Source: a virus
Virus record (IMG/VR): IMGVR_UViG_3300044699_000018
Span: 1 to 44,097 of that record
Strand: one strand, 5' to 3'
DNA: 44,097 nt
Positions within the stretch are counted from its first letter, which is position 1. Each line of letters opens with the position of its first letter. The notes under the pieces were generated by a model that saw nothing but the letters and a program-made list of their open reading frames with translations, did not search any database and was not told where the DNA came from. This document shows, piece by piece, positions 2,175-13,321 of this stretch. The position numbers were made by a program, and so were the translations under genes.

Positions 2175-2450
2175 ATGCCTGCTCGACGCCTTCGCGCGAT
2201 TGACATCACTAGTGAGGTGGGCTTGCCAATCACGACGGGCGAGCTGGCGCGCGTCACCGGTATTCCGCTTCGCACGATTCAGAGAGACATCACACTCGGC
2301 GCATTGAAGGCCGTACGGCGCTGGCAGGGACGGCATTATCGCATCGCATGGCAGGAAGCTAGGCAGTATGCGATCCGCGTCTGTGCGCTCGACTGTTCCA
2401 CGGGGAACGCACGCCAAACGCGCCAGCAAGACACGACATCAACAACGTAG
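2175..2450 (+). CDS. Small HTH (excisionase/MerR-type) DNA-binding protein
   Basis: A 91-residue protein whose residues ~20-60 look like an excisionase-type helix-turn-helix: TTGELARVTG is a first helix and PLRTIQRDITLGAL the recognition helix, followed by a wing-like GRHYRI. It follows the terminase by 9 bases, and GGAG at 2164-2168 serves as ribosome site. The role is unknown; packaging-region HTH proteins may be regulators or terminase accessory factors. The C-terminal Thr/Gln-rich tail has no recognisable fold. Confidence 0.6.
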   Translation: MPARRLRAIDITSEVGLPITTGELARVTGIPLRTIQRDITLGALKAVRRWQGRHYRIAWQEARQYAIRVCALDCSTGNARQTRQQDTTSTT

Positions 2451-2513
2451 CCTCGCTCTCTGCCACACTAGAGTCCGACTAGTCATTGTTCGTTCCGCTC
2501 CGTCGGATCCTTC

Positions 2514-2738
2514 ATGAGCATCGTGCGCGCGCTGCGGTCTGCGATGGCCGCATTCTGGGCGGCGTGTAGATCAGCCATTGATCTGCAAGACTGCGTCGTC
2601 TTCGCGGCGCTGGTCATGATTGGCGTCGGCTGTTGGTGGCTCTCTCCTGCGCTGGGCTTGATTGCGCCTGGCTCCCTCCTGCTGTTCATCTGCTTGTGGC
2701 CGGGCCCCCGTCCTCCGCGTGAGGAGGTTCGTCGCTGA
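2514..2738 (+). CDS. Small two-helix membrane protein
   Basis: A 74-residue product with two hydrophobic segments, about residues 26-43 (CVVFAALVMIGVGCWW) and 45-63 (PALGLIAPGSLLLFICLW), then a basic tail. Its TGA overlaps the portal ATG by one base, so it is translationally coupled to the portal gene. No family is recognised. A small membrane gene between terminase and portal is unusual but occurs in phages; a role at the host membrane is a guess. Confidence 0.55.
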   Translation: MSIVRALRSAMAAFWAACRSAIDLQDCVVFAALVMIGVGCWWLSPALGLIAPGSLLLFICLWPGPRPPREEVRR

Positions 2739-4294
2739 TGGGGCTGATTACGCGCCTGCGCGCACAGGCTGACGGCTCCGCCGGTAGACCTGATGACTGG
2801 GCGGACGTGTGGTACGACGGCACGCTCACCGGATCGCATCGCATAACCACGAGTGGCGTGCGCATGGGGCCCGATGCGGCCTTGCGGTTGTCAGCGGTCT
2901 GGGCGGCTGTGCGCATCCTTGTCGAAGGGATCAGCGCGCTGCCGTGCATCGTCTACGAGTCGCAGGAGGACGGCGGACGACTGCGGGCGAAGAAGCATCC
3001 GCTCTACACGGTCCTGAAGCGGTACCCGAACTCCTGGCAGACGGCGATCGAGTTCTGGGAAATGATGATGGGGCACGTGGTCCTGCGCGGGAATGCCTAC
3101 GCGCAGATCATCCCGGGGCCGCGCGGGGCAGTCGATCAGCTCATTCCGCGCCATCCCGATCGCATCGAGGTCCAGACGATCCAGACTCCGACCGGCATCC
3201 GGCTGCGGTACAAGTGGACGCCGCCTCAAGGCCAGCCGATCATCCTGACGCAGGATGAGATGTTCCATATCCGGGGACTGTCGAGTGACGGCGTCTCGGG
3301 ATTGATCCTTGCGGACCATGCCTCCGATTCATTCGGCTTGTCCAAGGCAGCCGAGAACTACGGGGCGACGTTCTTCCGCAAGGGCGCCACGGTCGCCGGC
3401 CTGGTCGAGCATCCGAAGAACATCACCGGGCCGGCACAGAAAAACCTCAAGGAGTCCATCGAAGCCCAGATGCGGAACCCGCACGGGATCATGGTGCTCG
3501 AAGAGGGCATGCAGTGGAAGCAGCTCGGGTTCAAAGCCCAAGACGCGCAGTTGATCGAGACGATGGAGTTCGGGATCGAAGAGGTAGCGCGCTGGTTCAA
3601 CGTGCCGCTGCACCTCCTCCGGTCCAACAAGCAGGCGCAGACGTACGCCAGCGTCGAGATGTTCGACCTGGAGTTGATCATCCACACGCTGCGCCCGTGG
3701 GCGGTCCGGATCGAGCAGGCGATCTCGCGCGATCTGATCACGGCGGACGACACGTACTTCGCCGAGTTCCTGATGGACGCGCTGATGCGCGGGGACTCAA
3801 CGGCGCGCAAGGACTTCTACGCGAGTGCGATCACGAATGGGTGGATGACGCGGAACGAAGTCCGGATCAAAGAGAACCTGAACCCGCTGGACGGACTTGA
3901 CGAGCCTTTGGCGCCGTTGAACATGGGCACGGGTAATCCGCCACCGGCCGGGCAGGACCAAGCGCCAGCGGCACCGAAACAACAGCGGGGCGCCTCGCTC
4001 GCCCGGGCGGCCGTGGACCGTGTCCTCCGCCGTGAGGCGGGGGCCGTGTCGAAGGCGCAGCAGAAGTACGCGAAGGAACCGAAGGCGTACCAAGCCTGGG
4101 CGGAAGCGTTCTACGCTGAGCACGCGACGTTCGTGGCTGATGCGTTGGCCATTCCGCACCTGGTGGCGGCCGCGTACTGCGCCGAACGGCTCGCCAAGAG
4201 CTATCCCTGGACCGAGCACACGCAGGCCCATCGCGACGCGTTGGTCACGTTGGCCTTGCAGGAGTACGACGATGAGCGACAACCGGCAGCCTGA
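2738..4294 (+). CDS. Portal protein (HK97 family)
   Basis: Forms the dodecameric portal ring at one capsid vertex through which DNA enters and leaves, and nucleates head assembly. The 518-residue length fits the HK97 portal family (usually 400-520). Typical features are SAVWAAVRILVEGISALP near residue 55, GNAYAQI near 118 and the conserved ARWFNVPLHLL stretch near 285-296. The C-terminal ~100 residues (Ala/Pro/Gln linker then Ala/Glu-rich helices) extend beyond the core and may be the variable crown. The gene overlaps the protease gene downstream by 23 bases. Confidence 0.93.
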   Translation: MGLITRLRAQADGSAGRPDDWADVWYDGTLTGSHRITTSGVRMGPDAALRLSAVWAAVRILVEGISALPCIVYESQEDGGRLRAKKHPLYTVLKRYPNSWQTAIEFWEMMMGHVVLRGNAYAQIIPGPRGAVDQLIPRHPDRIEVQTIQTPTGIRLRYKWTPPQGQPIILTQDEMFHIRGLSSDGVSGLILADHASDSFGLSKAAENYGATFFRKGATVAGLVEHPKNITGPAQKNLKESIEAQMRNPHGIMVLEEGMQWKQLGFKAQDAQLIETMEFGIEEVARWFNVPLHLLRSNKQAQTYASVEMFDLELIIHTLRPWAVRIEQAISRDLITADDTYFAEFLMDALMRGDSTARKDFYASAITNGWMTRNEVRIKENLNPLDGLDEPLAPLNMGTGNPPPAGQDQAPAAPKQQRGASLARAAVDRVLRREAGAVSKAQQKYAKEPKAYQAWAEAFYAEHATFVADALAIPHLVAAAYCAERLAKSYPWTEHTQAHRDALVTLALQEYDDERQPAA

Positions 4295-5372
4295 CCGTTA
4301 TCGGCACATCATGCGGGCATTTTCCCGTGAACTGTGGGCCATCGACGAGTCCAAGTACTGCGCCATTCGTGCATTCCTGACGCTGCGTGCGGCGGGCGGG
4401 CACGTGTCCGACGAAGAGATCAACGCGCTGGTGGCTGACTCTCGGCCGAACGTCACGCGGAATGCTGGGGCTGTGGCGGTGCTGCCGCTGTTCGGCACGA
4501 TCTCGCACCGAGCCGGTCTGCTGACCATGAGCAGCGGCGGCACGTCGACGATCGCGTTCGGGAAGGCCTTCGCGCAGGTCATGGCCGATCCGAACGTGTC
4601 CGCGGTGGTCATTGAGGCGGACACGCCTGGCGGCGGTGTCGCCGGGTTGCCAGAACTGGCGCAGCAGATTTTCGACGCGCGCGGGACCAAGCCCATCATC
4701 GGCGTGGCCGCAAGCCGCGCGCTGAGCGCGGGGTATTGGATTCTCTCCCAGGCCGATGAACTCGTCGTCCAGCCGAGCGCCGAGGTCGGCAGCATCGGCG
4801 TCTTCATGCTGCACGAGGACTGGTCGAAAGCCTACGAGATGGATGGCGTCAAGCCGGAGATCATCCGGTACGGCGAGAACAAGGCCGAAGTCAACGACTT
4901 CGAGCCGCTCAGCGACGACACGCGCGCCTATCTGAAGGCACAGGCGAATCAAGTCGGCGAGGCGTTCGTGCGAGATGTCGCGCGTGGCCGCGGCGTGTCT
5001 GCGCAGACGGTGCGGTCGGACTTCGGTAAGGGGCGCAGCGTGCTGGCCAAGGATGCGGTCAGGCTCGGGATGGCGGACCGCATCGGCACGGTCGACGACG
5101 CGATCGCCCGCGTCGCCAGCGGCCGCTGGAAAGCGCCGAACCGTCTGGCGGCCGAATCCATCGACGTGCGGATGGTGGCCGTCGCTGAAACCGAGGGCGT
5201 CAAGGCTGAAGCCCCAGTCTCGCAGGAGCCGCCCGTGGAGCTGCCGGCGCCAGAACCAGAACCGGCGTCCCCGCTGCCGTCCGCCGAAGCCCAAGACGAC
5301 GGCTACGACGACCTCGCCTTAGCCTATCTCAGCGAATGGGAGCAGTCCGATGCCGAGAGGCCGTCCGCCTAG
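4272..5372 (+). CDS. S49 family prohead protease (SppA-like)
   Basis: Head-maturation serine protease expected to cleave the capsid scaffold domain. It has the S49 core: ADTPGGGVAG (residues 117-125), the SALSAGYW-like nucleophile region with Ser152, a GSIGVFM strand at 173-179 and a Lys204 in GENKAE followed by the usual EPLSDDTR. A Ser/Lys dyad is the known mechanism of the family. ATG 4272 is preferred because residues upstream in this frame (back to 4020) are a basic shadow of the portal gene. The last ~60 residues are Pro/Glu-rich and end in an acidic tail, perhaps a scaffold-like or capsid-interacting extension. It sits between portal and capsid as expected. Confidence 0.9.
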   Translation: MSDNRQPDRYRHIMRAFSRELWAIDESKYCAIRAFLTLRAAGGHVSDEEINALVADSRPNVTRNAGAVAVLPLFGTISHRAGLLTMSSGGTSTIAFGKAFAQVMADPNVSAVVIEADTPGGGVAGLPELAQQIFDARGTKPIIGVAASRALSAGYWILSQADELVVQPSAEVGSIGVFMLHEDWSKAYEMDGVKPEIIRYGENKAEVNDFEPLSDDTRAYLKAQANQVGEAFVRDVARGRGVSAQTVRSDFGKGRSVLAKDAVRLGMADRIGTVDDAIARVASGRWKAPNRLAAESIDVRMVAVAETEGVKAEAPVSQEPPVELPAPEPEPASPLPSAEAQDDGYDDLALAYLSEWEQSDAERPSA

Positions 5373-5550: not shown

Positions 5551-5665
5551 TTCCTGCCTCCTCCGACACTGAGCACTGCACTAGGTGTTCCGTCTCGCCG
5601 TCTCCGTCCTCCATTGAGTGATGTAGTCCGGCACTGACGCAAGCAGACATTCGCGCACTCCAACG

Positions 5666-5752
5666 AGGCGCGCGAGTTTGCCTGACGCATTGACCCGCAG
5701 CCTTCCGACGAAGGCCGTGAATCATGCGCCAAGCAGATTCGCGCGCCTTTTT
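5666..5752 (+). promoter_or_regulatory. Long-range inverted repeat plus T-run before capsid gene
   Basis: A perfect 10-base inverted repeat, AGGCGCGCGA at 5666-5675 and TCGCGCGCCT at 5739-5748, encloses a 63-base loop with an inner CCTTC-CGAC-GAAGG hairpin at 5701-5714. The right arm runs straight into TTTTT. It looks like an attenuator, processing site or weak terminator just upstream of the major capsid gene. It lies in a 231-base gap, the longest in the head operon. The 5551-5665 part of the gap is pyrimidine-rich and shows no gene. Confidence 0.45.
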
Positions 5753-5781
5753 GCGTTGTGGGTGCCATCAGGAGATACGCG

Positions 5782-7098
5782 ATGGCGTCTCGCCTCAAGG
5801 CGTTGCAGGACCAGCAGGCCGCCCTTCAGACCGAAGCGCGCGCGCTCCTGTCTGCGGCAGACAAGAACGACAACAAGCGGATGACGGCCGAGCAGAAAGC
5901 GCGGTTCGAAGCGATCAAGGCCGAACGGGTCGAGGTCGATGAGGAACTGGGGCGCGAGATGCAGGCGCAGGAATGGGAGCGCACGAAGGCTCCTGTCATC
6001 CCGACCGGGAACGAAGACACGGAGCGCCAGGCGGCCGAACGCAATGGCGAGGAGAAGAAGGCCGAAGGTTTCGAGAGCTTCGGTCACATGCTTCACGCCG
6101 TCGCGAATGCCGCGAAGCCGGGCGGCCGTGTCGATCAGCGCCTCATGGCCGGGCCTACTGGCCTGAACGAAGGTGTTGGGTCGGATGGCGGCTTCCTCGT
6201 GCAGACGGACGTGCAGACGCAGGTGCGCCAGCGTGCCTACACGCAGGGCGAGATACTGAAGCGCGTCAACAAGATACCCATCAGCGGCAATTCCAACGGC
6301 ATCAAGCTGTACGGCATCGACGAGACGAGCCGGGCGGACGGCTCGCGCTTCGGCGGCATCCGGTCGTACTGGACCGCAGAAGGCGGCCTCAAGCTCGATT
6401 CGAAGCCGAAGTTCCGCGAGATGGACATGCGGCTGCACAAGATCGCAGCCCTCGTCTACTGCACCGACGAACTCCTCCAGGACACCGCCGCGCTCGAAGC
6501 GTGGATCACGTCGCGGCTGCCGGACGAACTCCGGTTCAAGGCCGAAGACGCCATACTCACCGGCACCGGTGCCGGTATGCCGCTGGGCATCTTCAACAGC
6601 GGTGCGGCCATCACGGTTCCGGCCGAAGCGGGCCAGCTCGCGGGCACGGTGGTCTTCGAGAACATCGTGAACATGTGGTCGCGGCTGTATGCCTCGTCCC
6701 GTTCGAATGCGGTGTGGCTGGTCGATCAGAGCGTCGAGCCGCAGCTCTACACCATGTCCCTCTCGATCGGCGCCGGCGGCATCCCGGTCTACATGCCGGC
6801 GGGCGGCATCTCCGGCGCCCCGTTCTCGACGCTGTTCGGGCGTCCCATCATCACGGTGGAGTACCTGTCGCAGCTCGGGACCAAGGGCGACATCGTCCTC
6901 GCCGATCTGTCGCAGTACACCGTCATCGACAAGGGCGACGTGCAGCAGGCCAGCTCGATGCACGTGCGGTTCCTCTATGACGAGACGGTCTACCGGTTTG
7001 TGTATCGGATCGACGGACAGCCCGAGTGGAATTCCCCGCTCACCCCGAAGAACGGTGGCGCAACTGTGTCGCCCTTCGTCGTGCTTGCGACCCGTTAG
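5782..7098 (+). CDS. Major capsid protein (HK97 fold)
   Basis: Shell-forming protein. The 438-residue product has an N-terminal coiled-coil scaffold (delta) domain, about residues 1-75, rich in Ala/Glu/Gln/Lys. A variable linker and then the HK97 core follow, with VGSDGGFLVQTDVQTQV near 140 and the C-terminal P-domain/A-domain segments around GAGMPLGIFNSGA. The scaffold domain is presumably removed by the upstream S49 protease. The frame extends back to a GTG at 5758, but AGGAGA at 5770-5775 lies 6 bases before ATG 5782, which fixes the start. Confidence 0.93.
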   Translation: MASRLKALQDQQAALQTEARALLSAADKNDNKRMTAEQKARFEAIKAERVEVDEELGREMQAQEWERTKAPVIPTGNEDTERQAAERNGEEKKAEGFESFGHMLHAVANAAKPGGRVDQRLMAGPTGLNEGVGSDGGFLVQTDVQTQVRQRAYTQGEILKRVNKIPISGNSNGIKLYGIDETSRADGSRFGGIRSYWTAEGGLKLDSKPKFREMDMRLHKIAALVYCTDELLQDTAALEAWITSRLPDELRFKAEDAILTGTGAGMPLGIFNSGAAITVPAEAGQLAGTVVFENIVNMWSRLYASSRSNAVWLVDQSVEPQLYTMSLSIGAGGIPVYMPAGGISGAPFSTLFGRPIITVEYLSQLGTKGDIVLADLSQYTVIDKGDVQQASSMHVRFLYDETVYRFVYRIDGQPEWNSPLTPKNGGATVSPFVVLATR

Positions 7099-7110
7099 AA
7101 CGAGGATGCC

Positions 7111-7587
7111 ATGTTGAGCTTTCCTGAACACTTCAAGATCGTGGACGGGCTCCAGCCGGCCGCTGATGCGGCGGGCCGTACGGGCCGCTACGTCAACCTC
7201 AAGAACTGCACCATGGTGCACGTGTTGGTCACGCTGGATCAGGGCAATGCCGCGACGGTGGCATTGACGCCCTACCAAGCGACGGCCGTGGCGGGCACCG
7301 CCGAGAAGGTGCTGGCAAATGCCGTGCAGATCTGGGCGAACCAGGACACGGCGACGAGTGATGCGCTCGTACGCCAGACCGACGCGGTGAACTTCACGAC
7401 TTCGGCGGCGGTCAAGCGCAAGCAGGTGCTGTTCCAGATTGATCCCGCGCTGCTCGATGTGGAGGGCGGGTTCGACAGCATCACGCTCAAGACGGGCGCG
7501 TCGAACGCGGCCAACATCACGCAGTGCACGTATTTCCTGCGGACGCGCTACTCCCAGCAGGTTCCGCCCAGCGCGATTGTCGACTAG
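7111..7587 (+). CDS. Putative capsid-associated/decoration protein 1
   Basis: A 158-residue, Ala/Thr/Val-rich protein with predicted beta character and no signal or membrane segment. It follows the capsid gene by 12 bases (GAGG before the ATG). Proteins of this size and composition between capsid and connector genes are often head decoration or minor capsid proteins. No motif settles the function; the call is from context. Confidence 0.55.
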   Translation: MLSFPEHFKIVDGLQPAADAAGRTGRYVNLKNCTMVHVLVTLDQGNAATVALTPYQATAVAGTAEKVLANAVQIWANQDTATSDALVRQTDAVNFTTSAAVKRKQVLFQIDPALLDVEGGFDSITLKTGASNAANITQCTYFLRTRYSQQVPPSAIVD

Positions 7588-7600
7588 CGAGGAGTGACAC

Positions 7601-8071
7601 ATGGCGACGATTCCGAATGCCAAGAACCGTGTCGTCTTCTCGCAGATGCGACTCGGGTTCTCGACGGACCGGGCGACGGCCGCGCTGCCGCAGACCACCC
7701 AATCTGCGATCTTCACGGTCTCCGGCGGTCGCATTGCGATCGTTGGGCTGATCGGTGAGGTGACGACGGTCATCCAGACACAGGCGGACAACCTGTCGGT
7801 CGTCTCGAATCCGACGACCGGCACGGACGTGGCGCTCTGTGCGGTGCTGAACATCAGCGCGAAGGAAGTCGGGACGCTGCTGGGGATCACGGGCACGTTT
7901 GCTGACGCGCTGGTTGGGGCGAATGCCGGCGCGACGGTGTTGTGTGACCGCCCGGTGGTCGTCCCGATCGGCACGATCGATCTGCTGACTTCGGCGAGCA
8001 ACACGGGCTCCATCAAGTGGCGCCTGATCTGGCTGCCCGTGGATGATGCGGCCAACGTCGCGGCCGCGTAG
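7601..8071 (+). CDS. Putative capsid-associated/decoration protein 2
   Basis: A 156-residue, strongly beta-type protein rich in Ala, Thr, Val and Gly, with a good ribosome site (GAGGAG at 7590-7595). It has the same size class and composition as the preceding gene, but no obvious sequence duplication by eye. By position it is likely a second head-surface or minor capsid protein. Function not demonstrated. Confidence 0.55.
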   Translation: MATIPNAKNRVVFSQMRLGFSTDRATAALPQTTQSAIFTVSGGRIAIVGLIGEVTTVIQTQADNLSVVSNPTTGTDVALCAVLNISAKEVGTLLGITGTFADALVGANAGATVLCDRPVVVPIGTIDLLTSASNTGSIKWRLIWLPVDDAANVAAA

Positions 8072-8081
8072 TGAGGACCCT

Positions 8082-8330
8082 GTGCTCCTACGCGTCCTCG
8101 TTGGCCCGCACGCCGGCACGATTCGCGACTACGCCCCGATGGCGGTCGCAGGCGCCCTGGCGGCGGGCATGGCGGAACCGGTAGATCGCGAGCCGATGCA
8201 TGTCGTCCCTGAGCCTGGTCGCCGCGCCGACAGAGGAACCGATCGATCTCGACACGGCGAAGGCGCAGTGCCGGATCGACCTGTCGGACGACGACGCGCT
8301 GATCCAGGGCTACATCGTCGCAGCGCGTGA
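8082..8330 (+). CDS. Small head-region protein (C-terminus uncertain)
   Basis: Starting at GTG 8082 the frame reads LLRVLVGPHAGTIRDY then APMAVAGALAAGMAEPV. This compact pattern (strand, Gly-Pro turn, short helix) is seen in tiny proteins encoded between capsid and connector genes of many phages. Beyond about 8200 the frame becomes Arg-rich because it shadows the connector gene. The real product is therefore probably only ~40-45 residues and may end by an unseen frameshift or earlier stop. Function unknown. Confidence 0.4.
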   Translation: MLLRVLVGPHAGTIRDYAPMAVAGALAAGMAEPVDREPMHVVPEPGRRADRGTDRSRHGEGAVPDRPVGRRRADPGLHRRSA

Positions 8331-8805
8331 GTACGTCGAGCACTACACCGGGCGGCAGTTGATCACGGCGACGTGGGATCTGGTGCTGGATGGGTTCTGT
8401 GCTCGCATCGATATCCCGAAGGCGCCGTTGCGGAGCGTGACCTCGATTGGCTACGTGGACACGGCGGGAGTCACACAGACCCTGGCCGTCTCTGGCTACA
8501 AGGTGATCGGGGCGGCTGGCACGCTGGTCAACCCGACGGCGTCACGTGGCCGGATCGAACGCGCGTATGCGACGGCCTGGCCCATCGCACGCAGCGAGTC
8601 AGGGAATGTGACGGTGCGATTCGTTGCGGGGTACGGGAATGCGTCAGACGTGCCGGTGGCGCTGAAGCAGGCCATGTTGCTGTTGATCGGCCACTGGTAT
8701 GCGAATCGTGAGCCCGTGAACATCGGCAACATCGTGGCGCCGTTGCCGATGGCCGTTGACGCGCTGCTCGGGCCGTATCGGACGTGGCCCATCGGGTGTT
8801 GTTAG
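8200..8805 (+). CDS. Head-tail connector (HK97 gp6-like)
   Basis: The 201-residue protein shows the gp6-like adaptor pattern. An N-terminal helical part has LDTAKAQCRIDLSDDDALIQGYI and AAREYVEHYTGRQL. A beta middle follows, and the conserved C-terminal helix runs ALKQAMLLLIGHWYANRE then a LPMAVDALLGPYR ending. Such proteins form the ring below the portal. The next gene begins at the base after its stop. Confidence 0.9.
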   Translation: MSSLSLVAAPTEEPIDLDTAKAQCRIDLSDDDALIQGYIVAAREYVEHYTGRQLITATWDLVLDGFCARIDIPKAPLRSVTSIGYVDTAGVTQTLAVSGYKVIGAAGTLVNPTASRGRIERAYATAWPIARSESGNVTVRFVAGYGNASDVPVALKQAMLLLIGHWYANREPVNIGNIVAPLPMAVDALLGPYRTWPIGCC

Positions 8806-9144
8806 GTGGGGATCGGGCTCGCTGCTGGCCTGTTGCGCCATCGCGTCACAGTGCAGGTGCCGGGGGCGCGTGTATCGGACGGATCGGGCGGATTCACCGA
8901 GACATGGACCGCTCTCGGCACCGTGTGGGCCGCCATCGAGCCAGCCACGGCCGCGAACGTCGAACGTCGCGTCGGGCGTCAGGTCGAGGCGAAGGTGTCG
9001 CACCTTCTGACCATTCGCTATCTGCCCGGTGTGGTGACGACAGGACGGGTGCTGTTCGGGTCGCGCATCTTCTGGATCCGAGGGATCGCCAACCGCGATG
9101 AGCGGAACGTGCAATTGACGCTGGCGTGTGACGAGAAGGTGTGA
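8806..9144 (+). CDS. Head closure protein / head-tail joining
   Basis: A 112-residue protein beginning with GTG directly after the connector stop. LLRHRVTVQVPG, GGFTETWTALGTVWAAIEP and the ending FWIRGIANRDERNVQLTLACDE are the beta-barrel pattern of SPP1 gp16/HK97 gp7-type stoppers (phage head-tail joining family). It closes the head after packaging and provides the tail docking surface. Stop and next start overlap (TGATG). Confidence 0.88.
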   Translation: MGIGLAAGLLRHRVTVQVPGARVSDGSGGFTETWTALGTVWAAIEPATAANVERRVGRQVEAKVSHLLTIRYLPGVVTTGRVLFGSRIFWIRGIANRDERNVQLTLACDEKV

Positions 9145-9560
9145 TGGCGGGCGTGAAGATCGACGGGCTAGCGGAGTTCAGGGCTGCGCTTAAAGCCGCG
9201 CCTGAACTCTTGACAAGAGAAGCCGCACCGATCGTCGCCGAGACCAGCGAGGCCGTCTTCAGTGCGCTCAAGGCGGACTATCCCGAAGGGGAGACCGGCA
9301 AGCTCCTGCGCGGCGTGAAGTTGGTGCAGACGGGGCCGCTCTCGTGGCGCGTGAAGAGCACGAGCAACATCGCGTTCATCTTCGAGAAGGGCACCGTGCA
9401 GCGGTACTTGCGCAGGTCAGGGGCCAATAGAGGCGTGATGCCGGCGGCGGATCTCTTCATCCCGTTGGCGACGCGCTACCGCGCCATCATGGTCTCTCGG
9501 CTCGAAGCGATGGCGGAACGTCAGACAGGCGCGCGGTTTGAGTCCAGCGCGGGCGTATGA
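9144..9560 (+). CDS. HK97 gp10-like head-tail/tail completion protein
   Basis: The 138-residue product has the gp10-like signature: VKIDGLAEFRAAL at the N-terminus, a helix with EAAPIVAETSEAVF, GETGKLLRGVK and a late IAFIFEKGT segment. It acts at the neck or in tail completion. ATG 9144 is used in preference to GTG 9141 because it forms the TGATG overlap with the upstream gene. Confidence 0.87.
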   Translation: MAGVKIDGLAEFRAALKAAPELLTREAAPIVAETSEAVFSALKADYPEGETGKLLRGVKLVQTGPLSWRVKSTSNIAFIFEKGTVQRYLRRSGANRGVMPAADLFIPLATRYRAIMVSRLEAMAERQTGARFESSAGV

Positions 9561-9970
9561 GCCAGAGCGCGATCGATCAGGCCATCGTCGGTCGCTTGTC
9601 TGCCGATGGGGCGTTGACGGCGGCGGCGCCTGGCGGGGTCTGGTGGGAGCTGGCACCGCAAGACGCGGCGACGCCCTACGTGGTCATCACGCTCGCGGAG
9701 GACTTTGACGAGCCGCAGTTCCGAAGCACGGCCTATGAAGTCGCGCAGTACGCGATCGAGGCCATGGACGATGGCCCGTCCTTCGCGGGAGTCTCGACGG
9801 CGTATGACCGCATCCACGCGTTGATGCAGGATCCGGCGCTCGCGATCACTGGTTACACGCTGATGAAGTGCTTCCGGCGTCGGCGGTATCGCAGCGTGAT
9901 TGAAGACGGCGACCAGCGCATACAGCAGGTCGGTGGTGTGTACGAGTTATGGGCGCAGCCTACGTCATGA
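9557..9970 (+). CDS. Tail terminator / tail completion protein (DUF3168-like)
   Basis: A 137-residue protein with the tail-terminator layout: helix AIDQAIVGRLSAD, the strand GGVWWELAPQDAATPYVVITL, helix DRIHALMQD and a C-terminal strand ending VYELWAQPTS. It caps the tail tube at the head-proximal end. Its last nine codons have a recoded second copy at 10482-10514, beyond the HNH gene that follows, so its 3' end appears to be the site of a mobile-gene insertion. Confidence 0.82.
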   Translation: MSQSAIDQAIVGRLSADGALTAAAPGGVWWELAPQDAATPYVVITLAEDFDEPQFRSTAYEVAQYAIEAMDDGPSFAGVSTAYDRIHALMQDPALAITGYTLMKCFRRRRYRSVIEDGDQRIQQVGGVYELWAQPTS

Positions 9971-10485
9971 CGAAGGCCAGAATTGCGGATAAGTTCTCGC
10001 GCTTCGTGGCTCGCGGCGAGAGCTGCTGGGAGTGGACTGGGTCTCGAAACGCCAACGGCTACGGGCAGTTTCAAATGAAGACAGCAGGCCGTTGGGCGCC
10101 TTGGTTAGCCCATCGTGTCTCGTACTGGCTTGAGAAGGGCGACGTTCCTGATGGCATGTGCGTATGCCATAGCTGTGACAACAGGGCGTGCGTACGGCCG
10201 GATCATCTGTGGTTGGGAACAGTCGCCGACAACAACCGCGACATGAGCCACAAAGGCCGAGTGCGTACAGGCGTAGGCATGGAGCATCCTTCTAGAAAGC
10301 ATCCAGAGTCCTTGCCTCGTGGTGAGGACCATGTCTTCGCAAAGCTGAATGACGCATCGGTCAGGGAAATTCGATCCCGTAGGGACGCTGGCGAAGATGC
10401 GCTCATGGTTGCTCGGATGTACGGCGTGTCTCGTACGGTTATCTACAAGATTCACAATCGTCAGATGTGGGCGCACGTCTCGTAA
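9967..10485 (+). CDS. HNH homing-type endonuclease
   Basis: A 172-residue free-standing HNH nuclease. N-terminal CWEWTGSRNANGYGQF and LAHRVSYWLEKGDVP lead into the zinc-coordinated HNH core CHSCDNRACVRPDHLWLGT (residues ~68-85). The C-terminal part (~120-172) carries a helix-turn-helix-like ALMVARMYGVSRTVIYKIHN, typical of the DNA-binding module of such enzymes. The start (ATGA) overlaps the tail-terminator stop. It cuts DNA to spread its own gene; the duplicated target remnant at its 3' side fits that. Confidence 0.9.
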   Translation: MTKARIADKFSRFVARGESCWEWTGSRNANGYGQFQMKTAGRWAPWLAHRVSYWLEKGDVPDGMCVCHSCDNRACVRPDHLWLGTVADNNRDMSHKGRVRTGVGMEHPSRKHPESLPRGEDHVFAKLNDASVREIRSRRDAGEDALMVARMYGVSRTVIYKIHNRQMWAHVS

Positions 10486-10514
10486 ACGAACTCTGGGCTC
10501 AGCCCACAACGTAA
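10482..10514 (+). pseudogene. Remnant of tail-terminator C-terminus
   Basis: Read in the frame of 10482, this reads V-N-E-L-W-A-Q-P-T-T-stop, against V-Y-E-L-W-A-Q-P-T-S-stop at the true end of the tail terminator (9938-9970). About 22 of 33 bases match, and nearly all differences are at synonymous third positions, so it is an independent allele and not a recent copy. It is the displaced original 3' end, or the end of a related allele, left on the far side of the HNH insertion. Confidence 0.75.
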
Positions 10515-10571
10515 ATGGTCACACCGACACATGGTCTCACCATTCCATACATCATCCCCAACAACGGGTAA
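10515..10571 (+). CDS. 18-codon ORF after the remnant (uncertain)
   Basis: Directly after the remnant's TAA (TAAATG), an ATG opens MVTPTHGLTIPYIIPNNG and then TAA. In an uninterrupted phage the next gene would start exactly here, so this may be a decayed start of the gene that once followed the tail terminator, or a real micro-peptide. No ribosome site apart from coupling to the upstream stop. Confidence 0.25.
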   Translation: MVTPTHGLTIPYIIPNNG

Positions 10572-10601
10572 GCGGGTGGTCCGCGCCGATGCGAGGCGCG
10601 C

Positions 10602-11162
10602 ATGACCGTCTCGCTGATCTGTGCCGCCTTCAACCGGCCGCAGGTGCTACCCGTCCTGCTGCATTGCCTTCGTGTGCAGACACACCAGGACTGGGAATGT
10701 CTGGTGATGGACGAATCGCCTGAGCGCGTGAACCTCGACGTGGTGGCGACGATCAACGACGACCGCATCCAGCACGTTCCCTGCGATCGGTTCAACGACT
10801 GGGGCCAATCGGTCAAGCGCATCGGCGCCGAGATGAGCCAGGGCGCGGTCTTGGGCTTTCCCAATGATGACGCCTACTACACGCCCACGTATCTCGAGCG
10901 GATGGCCGGGACGCTGAAGCGCGACAAGCTCGGGCTCGTCTACTGCGATTGGCTGTTCGACATCATGGGCTACGTGCCGTGGTGCGCACAGCCGGTGGTC
11001 GGCCACATCGACGTGGGCGGCTTCCTGGTGACGCGTGAGGCGATGAAGCACGTGCCATGGACAGGCGCACATCAGACGGCCGATGGGGAATGGGTGCAAG
11101 CCATGGTCGCTGCCGGCATTCGACATGGGAAGGCACCGGGGGTGCTCTATGTCAAGAACTGA
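10602..11162 (+). CDS. GT2-like glycosyltransferase
   Basis: The 186-residue GT-A fold enzyme starts VSLICAAFNRPQVL and has WECLVMDESP for the nucleotide-binding region. GFPNDDAYY (NDD at residues 88-90) is the metal-binding DXD equivalent, and DVGGFLVTREA is the acceptor-side strand. It transfers a sugar from a nucleotide-sugar donor to an unknown acceptor. It is short for the family (usually 220-300), keeping only the catalytic domain. First of four overlapping genes of a glycan cassette; GAGG precedes the start. Confidence 0.82.
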   Translation: MTVSLICAAFNRPQVLPVLLHCLRVQTHQDWECLVMDESPERVNLDVVATINDDRIQHVPCDRFNDWGQSVKRIGAEMSQGAVLGFPNDDAYYTPTYLERMAGTLKRDKLGLVYCDWLFDIMGYVPWCAQPVVGHIDVGGFLVTREAMKHVPWTGAHQTADGEWVQAMVAAGIRHGKAPGVLYVKN

Positions 11163-11736
11163 TGGCGTCATGGTGTCCGCGGTCACGAAAGACCGGGCCT
11201 ATTGGAACAAGGGCATCTCGAACGTCCCGATGATGACCGGCGCCGCCTCTGTCATGGACTGCTCGGACCTGATCGATGCCTGCCGAGGCCTGGGGGTCGA
11301 CTTGCCGCTCGGCGACGTGCTCGACGTTGGATGTGGGACGGGGCGTTTGTGGTCGCAGTGCCAGGGATACGTCGGAGTCGATATCGCCGGCGATGCCGTC
11401 GCGTATTGCCAGAACAAAGGTCTGAACGCGCTGAGCATCGACGGACCGAAGGATTTGCCCTCGGGACCGTTCGACGCGATCTGCTGCTTCTCGGTCTTCA
11501 CGCACATCAACCGTGCGGACCATGTGGCCTATTTGGCTGAGTTCAAGGCCAGATCGCGTCAGTTGTTGGTGGACATCATTCCTGGAGATGGCCGAGGAAC
11601 CGTGGCGCTCTGGACCGCACGGCCGGTGATGTTCGAGTCGGACCTGCGTCATGCGGGTTACGTGGTCATAGCGACGTATGACCGGACCTCGCCGGATGGC
11701 GTGACGCATCGCTACTACCGGTCGGAGTTGGCATGA
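11149..11736 (+). CDS. SAM-dependent methyltransferase (class I)
   Basis: A 195-residue protein with motif I GDVLDVGCGTGRLW (residues 55-68), acidic motif II GYVGVDIAGDAV (73-84), then FDAICCFSVFTHI (post-motif) and a C-terminal strand VVIATYDRTSPDG. This is a Rossmann methyltransferase of the type that modifies small molecules or sugars. The start at ATG 11149 overlaps the glycosyltransferase by 14 bases; ATG 11170 is an alternative. Its setting among sugar genes suggests O-methylation of a glycan; the substrate is inferred. Confidence 0.82.
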   Translation: MSRTDGVMVSAVTKDRAYWNKGISNVPMMTGAASVMDCSDLIDACRGLGVDLPLGDVLDVGCGTGRLWSQCQGYVGVDIAGDAVAYCQNKGLNALSIDGPKDLPSGPFDAICCFSVFTHINRADHVAYLAEFKARSRQLLVDIIPGDGRGTVALWTARPVMFESDLRHAGYVVIATYDRTSPDGVTHRYYRSELA

Positions 11737-12239
11737 ACGTTCCCGATCGCGACCTGCTCGCGCAGTATGACCGGACCGAGCCGTTCGCGCGGGCGTATCT
11801 CGGGGGCACGTTCGATCTGTTCCATCGCGGCCATCTGGCACTGATGGCGAGGGCTCGGCGGATCGCGAAGGAGATCGTCGTCGGCGTGAACACGGACGAA
11901 TTCGCCACACGTTATAAACGCAAGCCGGTGATGTGTCTGGCCGATCGAATCGCGGTGCTGAGTGCCTGCCGGCTGGTGGATCACGTCGTCCTCAACGTCG
12001 GCGATGAAGACTCGAAGCCGGCCATTGTGCATGCGGGCGTTGACTGCATCGTGCATGGGAGCGACTGGGTCGGCGAACCGTTGATGCGGCAGATGGGACT
12101 GACGCCGGAGTTCTTGCGAGACCACCACATCACGATGGTGACCTTACCCTATACACCGTGGGTCAGTTCGACGTCGATCGTGGAAGGCTGGCAGCCGGTG
12201 ATTGCGCGACAGGTAATGCGTGAGGAGTTGGCGCATTGA
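11733..12239 (+). CDS. TagD/GCT-like cytidylyltransferase
   Basis: The 168-residue protein has the nucleotidyltransferase signature YLGGTFDLFHRGHLAL with HxGH at residues 31-34, the GVNTDEFATRYKRKP loop and the second ATP-binding element WVSSTSIV. The closest families are glycerol-3-phosphate cytidylyltransferase (TagD) and the RfaE C-terminal domain. It would activate a phosphorylated polyol or sugar as a CDP or ADP derivative for the neighbouring transferases. The ATGA overlap with the methyltransferase shows coupled translation. Confidence 0.85.
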   Translation: MNVPDRDLLAQYDRTEPFARAYLGGTFDLFHRGHLALMARARRIAKEIVVGVNTDEFATRYKRKPVMCLADRIAVLSACRLVDHVVLNVGDEDSKPAIVHAGVDCIVHGSDWVGEPLMRQMGLTPEFLRDHHITMVTLPYTPWVSSTSIVEGWQPVIARQVMREELAH

Positions 12240-13321
12240 AACCGCTCAAAATATTCGTCATTTCGGGCGGTGCAGCGTTCAGTTTGAAGGACGTGGACAC
12301 CGGCGTGGTAGCAGGGCTGCGGGCCGCTGGGGCGGAGGTCGGGCTCTATGCCTACGACGAACGTCTCGGGGCCTACAAGCAGGTGCTGGAGTGGATGTGG
12401 AAGAAGCGGCGCAAAGACAATCCGGCGATCGAAAAGCCGCCGTTCCTGCACGTCCAGCTCAATGCGATCAGCGAAGCCCAAATGATCGCGCAGTTGAATG
12501 ACGCGGATTTCGTGCTGTTCATTTCGGGCATGTTCGTGCCGCTGCCAGTCATGAAGGCATGGCGTCGGTACAGCCGGATTCCGATCGCCCTGTTGCTGAC
12601 CGAGTCCCCGTACGACCTTGAGAACGAGGTGCGCTGGGTGGAACAGGCGCATCTCGCCTGGACAAACGAGCGCAGCGTGGTCGATCGACTGCGACAGGTG
12701 AACCCGCAGGTCCGCTATCTGCCTCACGCATGGCTGCCGGGGGTACACGATGTCGTTCCAGAAGACATGAGCGCGATCGCGGCGCACGACGTGGTGTTCG
12801 TCGGGACATCGTTCAAGGAGCGCATCGCGTTCTTGGAGGCGATCGACTGGACGGGCATCGACTTCGGTATCTATGGTCACTGGAAGAGTCTTCCGCGGAA
12901 GAGCCGACTCCAGCAGTACATCCGTGGTGGTGTGCAGGAGAACGCGACGACGTCCGCGCTGTATCGTCGCGCGAAGGTCGGTCTGAACCTTTATCGGCAC
13001 ATGAAGGGCTGGACCGGCGTCGAGCGGATCGCACAGGCGGACTCGCTGAATCTGCGCGCCTACGAACTAGCCACGGCAGGATGTTTCCAGGTCAGCGACC
13101 ACCGTGCCGAGATCGCGGAGATCTTCGGTGATGCCGTAGCGACGTTCACGTCTCCGGCCGAATGCGAAGCGGCGATCTGCCACGCCCTCGCTGACGACGT
13201 CTGGCGACGCCGTTGTGTCGATGCGGCGAAGCTTAGGGCGCAGGGTCACACCTGGTATACGCGGGGGATTCAGATGATGGCGGATCTCCAGCGGTATCAG
13301 CATCAAGAGGCGGCGGCGTGA
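12236..13321 (+). CDS. CgeB-like glycosyltransferase (GT-B fold)
   Basis: A 361-residue GT-B-type enzyme. The N-terminal Rossmann half begins KPLKIFVISGGAAF, and the C-terminal half has DVVFVGTSFKERIAFL. The donor-binding stretch SLNLRAYELATAGCFQV then AEIAEIFGDAV matches group 1/CgeB-type transferases. It starts at the rare TTG 12236, overlapping the upstream stop (TTGA), with GAGGAG at 12222-12227 in good position; no ATG is near. Last gene of the glycan cassette. Confidence 0.82.
   Translation: MKPLKIFVISGGAAFSLKDVDTGVVAGLRAAGAEVGLYAYDERLGAYKQVLEWMWKKRRKDNPAIEKPPFLHVQLNAISEAQMIAQLNDADFVLFISGMFVPLPVMKAWRRYSRIPIALLLTESPYDLENEVRWVEQAHLAWTNERSVVDRLRQVNPQVRYLPHAWLPGVHDVVPEDMSAIAAHDVVFVGTSFKERIAFLEAIDWTGIDFGIYGHWKSLPRKSRLQQYIRGGVQENATTSALYRRAKVGLNLYRHMKGWTGVERIAQADSLNLRAYELATAGCFQVSDHRAEIAEIFGDAVATFTSPAECEAAICHALADDVWRRRCVDAAKLRAQGHTWYTRGIQMMADLQRYQHQEAAA

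Follow-up and report, generated by a model that had tools for sequence, protein, structure and literature searches.

A free-standing HNH gene that very probably entered a phage tail terminator gene together with a replacement coding end

A free-standing homing-type HNH gene in a 44,097-base virus record (an IMG/VR phage contig, analyzed over its full length and referred to here as the window) very probably entered the 3′ coding end of a tail terminator gene as a two-part cassette, made up of a replacement gene end and the HNH open reading frame (Table 1). The window encodes a terminase, portal, protease, capsid, head-tail connectors, tape measure and integrase, and the terminator gene is placed within the head-tail connector gene order. 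Its product matches Pfam PF11367 (Tail_completion_gp17; E=5.7e-11) and PHROG 176 (tail terminator; E=1.9e-4), and no phage relative of it was found in INPHARED.

Table 1. Features at the HNH insertion site, in window coordinates
Feature	Coordinates	Strand	Basis or remark
Tail terminator (tail completion) gene, intact, 137 aa	9557..9970	+	Insertion target
Predicted carried (replacement) end, VYELWAQPTS and stop	9938..9970	+	Sequence, lower G+C, TTA codon
HNH_3 endonuclease gene, 172 aa, C-terminal helix-turn-helix	9967..10485	+	Pfam, PHROG
Predicted native gene-end remnant, ELWAQPTT and stop; untranslated vestige abutting the HNH stop	10486..10514	+	BLASTN against L003
Native downstream flank (ATGGTCACACC...)	10515..10545	+	Directly 3′ of the terminator stop in the empty relative

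The HNH gene has the domain and motif of an HNH_3 homing-type endonuclease together with a DNA-binding module. The HNH_3 domain (PF13392) is matched with E=3.7e-11 and 42.9 bits against a cut-off of 24.8, the HNH motif is intact (near position 10165), and an HTH_7 module is found at residues 126-165 (E=2.3e-4; at 21.7 bits it lies under the curated cut-off of 23.8). The product also corresponds to the HNH endonucleases of PHROG 59/1872, and a PDB sequence search with it gave no match. Its ATG start overlaps the terminator TGA (ATGA), and an alternative in-frame ATG at 9949 is possible.

Two versions of the same gene end flank the HNH gene. The upstream copy (9938-9970) reads GTG TAC GAG TTA TGG GCG CAG CCT ACG TCA TGA, encoding VYELWAQPTS and a stop, and the downstream copy (10482-10514) reads GTA AAC GAA CTC TGG GCT CAG CCC ACA ACG TAA, encoding VNELWAQPTT and a stop. 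The first-pass annotation had reported that the terminator ends with the former peptide directly before the HNH gene, which the ATGA overlap confirms, and that the copies agree at about 22 of 33 bases with mostly synonymous differences. The count is indeed 22/33, with mismatches distributed 3/1/7 by codon position; two codons are identical, and seven of the nine that changed are synonymous and two non-synonymous. The interval given there, 9938-10514, holds for the feature and should be widened to include the upstream gene.

Across six frames of the 44 kb, the full seven-residue ELWAQPT is found in these two copies and nowhere else. The shortness of the stretch (11 codons) speaks for a chance resemblance, and we nonetheless give that explanation a negligible probability: the 7/7 match and a stop fall at the HNH edge, whereas 20,000 random 90-mers with matching base composition gave 5/7 at best, and BLASTN aligns window 10486-10545 to the native end and flank of the HNH-less contig L003 (4386-4442, 83%, E=1.9e-10). 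In a matched control, three of 888 other ORF edges from the same loci score at least 36, and the window scores 37.8. On these sequence comparisons the two ends are clearly homologous. The G+C content is 0.545 in the upstream copy, 0.568 in the HNH gene and 0.654 in the gene body, and the upstream copy contains TTA, a codon used for 0.7% of leucines across 12 genes of the window; low G+C and TTA would be suggestive marks of a foreign carried end, over just 11 codons. The left boundary of this end lies inside homologous sequence and so has no exact placement.

Which copy is native is indicated by an HNH-less allele at the same site, as expected for a free-standing homing endonuclease gene; the same HNH at this site was not found in any relative. 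The empty allele is present in two IMG/VR contigs, L002 and L003, which are identical over a shared 6.2 kb and are treated as one phage in two samples, with the same gene order as the window and no HNH gene. The terminator they encode shares 83% amino acid identity with that of the window, has nearly the same C-terminal residues, and ends VYELWAQPTT with TAA followed immediately by ATGGTCACACC, as does the downstream copy in the window. BLASTN matches window 5588-9963 to L003 2-4407, and together with the match of the downstream copy this aligns some 22 bases of the empty allele twice, once on each side of the HNH gene; the terminator's own end is present once in L002/L003. Both window copies differ from L002 at 7/33 nt by manual count, and the flank and the last residue (T) of L002 agree with the downstream copy and not with the upstream one. 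Position, flank and last residue of the downstream copy are all native; on this evidence it is the native remnant, and the upstream copy is the one that would have arrived with the HNH gene.

The remnant (ACGAACTCTGGGCTCAGCCCACAACGTAA) lies directly 3′ of the HNH TAA and encodes ELWAQPTT and a stop with no amino acid change relative to the empty allele. At the HNH junction the T of the native TAC is missing, giving an apparent asparagine codon, and homology starts at 10486; of the downstream peptide originally read as V-N-E-L-W-A-Q-P-T-T, ELWAQPTT therefore stands, and the V-N is partly HNH sequence and an effect of the junction. The first-pass annotation had placed the HNH gene within the 3′ end of a conserved phage gene, to which it would have brought a functional end, and had predicted that an HNH-less relative would show the downstream-type ending (PTT, TAA) and then DNA like that from 10515 onward; L002/L003 support the former and have the latter arrangement.

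The same comparison makes a tandem duplication or paralogous neighborhood, in which the second ELWAQPT would belong to another gene, very improbable. Adjacent paralogous segments do occur, and the top-scoring control ORFs include such adjacent repeats (e.g. in tail fibres) that are not split gene ends; two weak duplicates in our survey, L114 and L048, may also be of this kind. In the window, however, this explanation is contradicted by the empty site, where the terminator end is single with the same flank, and no gene covers 10486-10514 in the remnant frame beyond the HNH edge. A group I intron or intein was also considered and, on the gene layout, rejected, as the terminator has its own stop before the HNH gene and the remnant is redundant.

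Other differences between the window and its relative were noted around the site. Nucleotide identity to L002 just before the replaced end (9881-9952) is 33/36 and 31/36, compared with 25-29/36 over most of the gene, which may mark a tract of co-conversion or a target site under constraint; we dropped it as evidence for co-conversion, the first codons of the terminator being equally similar to L002. Downstream of the terminator L003 has a small ORF (4415-4680) with a hydrophobic middle (MVTPFSPNSSPPDKRTGRAS...GLRMARRA), and the window has a matching but much shorter frame at 10515-10601 (MVSPFHTSSPTTGKRVVRADARRA, translated by eye), pointing to in-frame loss of the hydrophobic segment. Right behind the terminator and within the structural module, the interval 10602-13321 contains a glycosyltransferase family 2 gene, a methyltransferase, a cytidylyltransferase-like (heptose adenylyltransferase-like) gene and a second glycosyltransferase, a block also kept in L002/L003.

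We infer from these sequences how such a cassette could act and spread. The replacement end VYELWAQPTS is in frame with the gene body and leaves the essential protein whole, with the displaced native end ELWAQPTT persisting as a silent remnant after the HNH stop. An HNH protein of the same lineage would cut the gene end in a co-infecting phage near what becomes the remnant's edge, the broken end of the gene body would be repaired on the donor's homologous gene with copying of the donor end and the HNH gene, and the far side would be joined at the HNH edge. The respelled end would preserve the protein and no longer match the target, conferring immunity, and mismatch between the copies would hinder deletion of the HNH gene by recombination. 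Cleavage, homing and immunity are thus predicted activities of the window HNH.

The arrangement recurs elsewhere. HNH relatives were gathered from viral and bacterial contigs, and the peptides on either side of each HNH were compared. Clear additional cases by reading frame are L018 and L276, at an endolysin N-terminus, and L117 and L259, at a C5-methyltransferase N-terminus (gene names in L018, L276 and in L144, L203 and L316 below come from reading the sequences, not from domain searches). L018 and L276 have related HNH genes (49% identical) antisense at the endolysin 5′ end; in both, the native N-terminus remnant is on the far side of the HNH gene (MNLALGDTRLIIECCKRHGLLRNQAAYVLATA in L018, MTISLDIGDSRHIIKIAKEMG in L276), and that of L276 begins at the first base after the HNH stop. 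Synonymous and non-synonymous codon differences between the copies number 17 and 6 in the L018 endolysin, 16 and 3 in the L259 methyltransferase, and 11 and 1 in that of L117. In 36 loci of HNH-less endolysin relatives, several of them near-copies of each other, the 900 nt upstream contain no HNH motif. Weaker cases, which we regard as probable from their sequences, are L144 (DUF5131-like N-terminus), L162, L203, L316 (SSB-like), L039, L113, L098 and L326. In L326 the HNH ORF (2438-3046) runs in frame into the target C-terminus remnant (RLPNSTLQTITQ) and uses its stop. The weak duplicates L114, L048, L136/L235 and L164 may reflect paralogy or chance, for L008 there is a survey score only, and none of these is counted as support. 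The swapped ends span about 7-31 codons at N- or C-termini, on either strand, in phages and in bacterial contigs.

Intergenic HNH insertion without an end-swap is common: no duplicated end was found at related HNH genes in ZH4 (between gp15 and gp16), LUZ24 and LAh_6, or in Gordonia phages DumpsterDude, Bradissa and BrutonGaster. A first survey null built from mismatched locus pairs gave 12 loci scoring at least 45 against 1.05 expected, and later 18 against 2.0, but was rejected as too lenient; when ORFs of the same loci served as controls, low-complexity GC-rich frames erased the excess at scores under ~55. Scoring was then revised by down-weighting A/R/P/S/G/T/H matches and narrowing the windows compared, after which 10 of 284 HNH loci score at least 32 against 5 of 888 control ORFs from the same loci, with p=0.0006, a value that is indicative only, the matrix having been altered after the earlier statistic failed. 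The phage window ranks sixth in this revised survey, and the excess over same-locus controls is modest. Given these limits of the survey, we claim recurrence in several independent target genes and no precise frequency.

The anatomy is explained equally well if the carried end is simply the terminator end of a diverged donor phage, copied with the HNH gene in a one-sided recombinational repair and with a spelling that has no function; we consider this a serious possibility, if somewhat short of an even chance. The carried end and the HNH gene share a lower G+C than the gene body, and with a single independent empty relative, at ~74% nucleotide identity upstream, local recoding and donor divergence are inseparable in the window. 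The methyltransferase of L117 bears on the choice. Genes of this kind are present in 27 of 399 Pseudomonas genomes (L117's own included), and the start motif occurs once in the fetched relatives and twice in L117. Relative to the ten closest HNH-less alleles, the carried codons 1-15 show synonymous differences at a fraction of 0.80 of the conserved codons, compared with 0.43-0.56 for each of these alleles against the others and 0.53 for the L117 remnant. Codons 21-25 are still raised (0.42 vs 0.07) and the gene is ordinary from codon 26 on, and the divergence is thus limited to the replaced end plus a handful of codons beyond the break. High synonymous divergence is found anyway between empty alleles in these first 15 codons, as the diverged-donor explanation would have it, but beyond about codon 25 the L117 body diverges no further than local alleles do and the donor tract must stop there; such short tracts are possible. 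The local divergence fits recoding of the target, and a short donor tract would look alike. In L117 the HNH ORF (2953-3468) carries the native methyltransferase start fused to its N-terminus (MISYGSVCSGIEAATQ-S-RF...), so that its translation may begin at the start site of the target gene itself; an ATG within the HNH end provides a new start for the methyltransferase.

It is also conceivable, although we think it rather unlikely, that the spelling difference is kept for stability and not for immunity, identical direct copies being prone to recombine and delete the HNH gene. Every case has direct repeats flanking the HNH gene with ~49-73% nucleotide identity, as this would predict, but it leaves unexplained why the replacement sits exactly at the insertion point.

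Returning to entry with a replacement end, we lean slightly towards the view that it reflects a general end-swap strategy of free-standing HNH_3 genes in phages and prophages, in which a conserved gene (tail terminator, endolysin, C5-methyltransferase, probably others) is entered at its first or last codons with a locally recoded end, protecting both host gene and element as a splicing-free alternative to introns and inteins, and with some HNH ORFs continuing into the remnant of the native start or stop. Introns and inteins are the usual answer to occupying an essential gene, and this would be a third way, in phages, for a free-standing selfish gene to occupy essential coding sequence without splicing. 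The remnant marks the break in the gene and could predict, from sequence alone, the recognition site of many uncharacterized HNH genes. Gene ends beside HNH genes can be chimeric, affecting annotation and trees of short phage genes.

Among known phage systems, the free-standing HEGs of T-even phages also lie beside conserved genes, commonly with overlapping starts and stops and with co-conversion of flanks; in the available sections of that account their cleavage sites lie apart from where they are inserted, and duplication or replacement of a gene end is not described, whereas the window insertion is inside a coding end (PMC2988022). Skunavirus HNH genes are likewise free-standing between structural genes, and the recipient is assumed to become resistant as the donor allele replaces the target, but unlike in the window no gene-end duplication is reported (PMC12724721). 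ShiLan has an HNH gene in a conserved phage methylase without an intron or intein, and as described in the accessible part of the source it sits inside the gene and is read through in frame without a replacement end, unlike the window (PMC11855218). Replacement gene ends are absent from the available portions of these and other phage papers (PMC2988022, PMC10448857, PMC12724721, PMC2248197, PMC11855218), and a targeted search of the open-access literature found no phage description of an end-replacing endonuclease. Introns and inteins had been cited at first as the precedent for a co-carried replacement C-terminus, which is imprecise, as one is also found with intron-less endonuclease ORFs of fungal mitochondria (PMC3630166). 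In these mORFs, of which Allomyces macrogynus atp6 is given as the first case (PMC3630166 and its ref. 48), an intron-less endonuclease ORF has inserted into a conserved gene at its 3′ end, an anatomy that the window matches (PMC3630166). In Glomus sp. mitochondria (atp6, atp9, cox2 and nad3) the order is inserted C-terminus, endonuclease ORF and native C-terminus, with almost all differences synonymous (PMC3630166), and the window has the same order of inserted end (9938-9970), ORF (9967-10485) and remnant (10486-10514). The fungal mORFs encode LAGLIDADG or GIY-YIG enzymes and occupy C-termini in mitochondria, whereas the genes described here encode HNH_3 enzymes, come from phages and from bacterial contigs, and are located at either the N- or the C-terminus of their targets.
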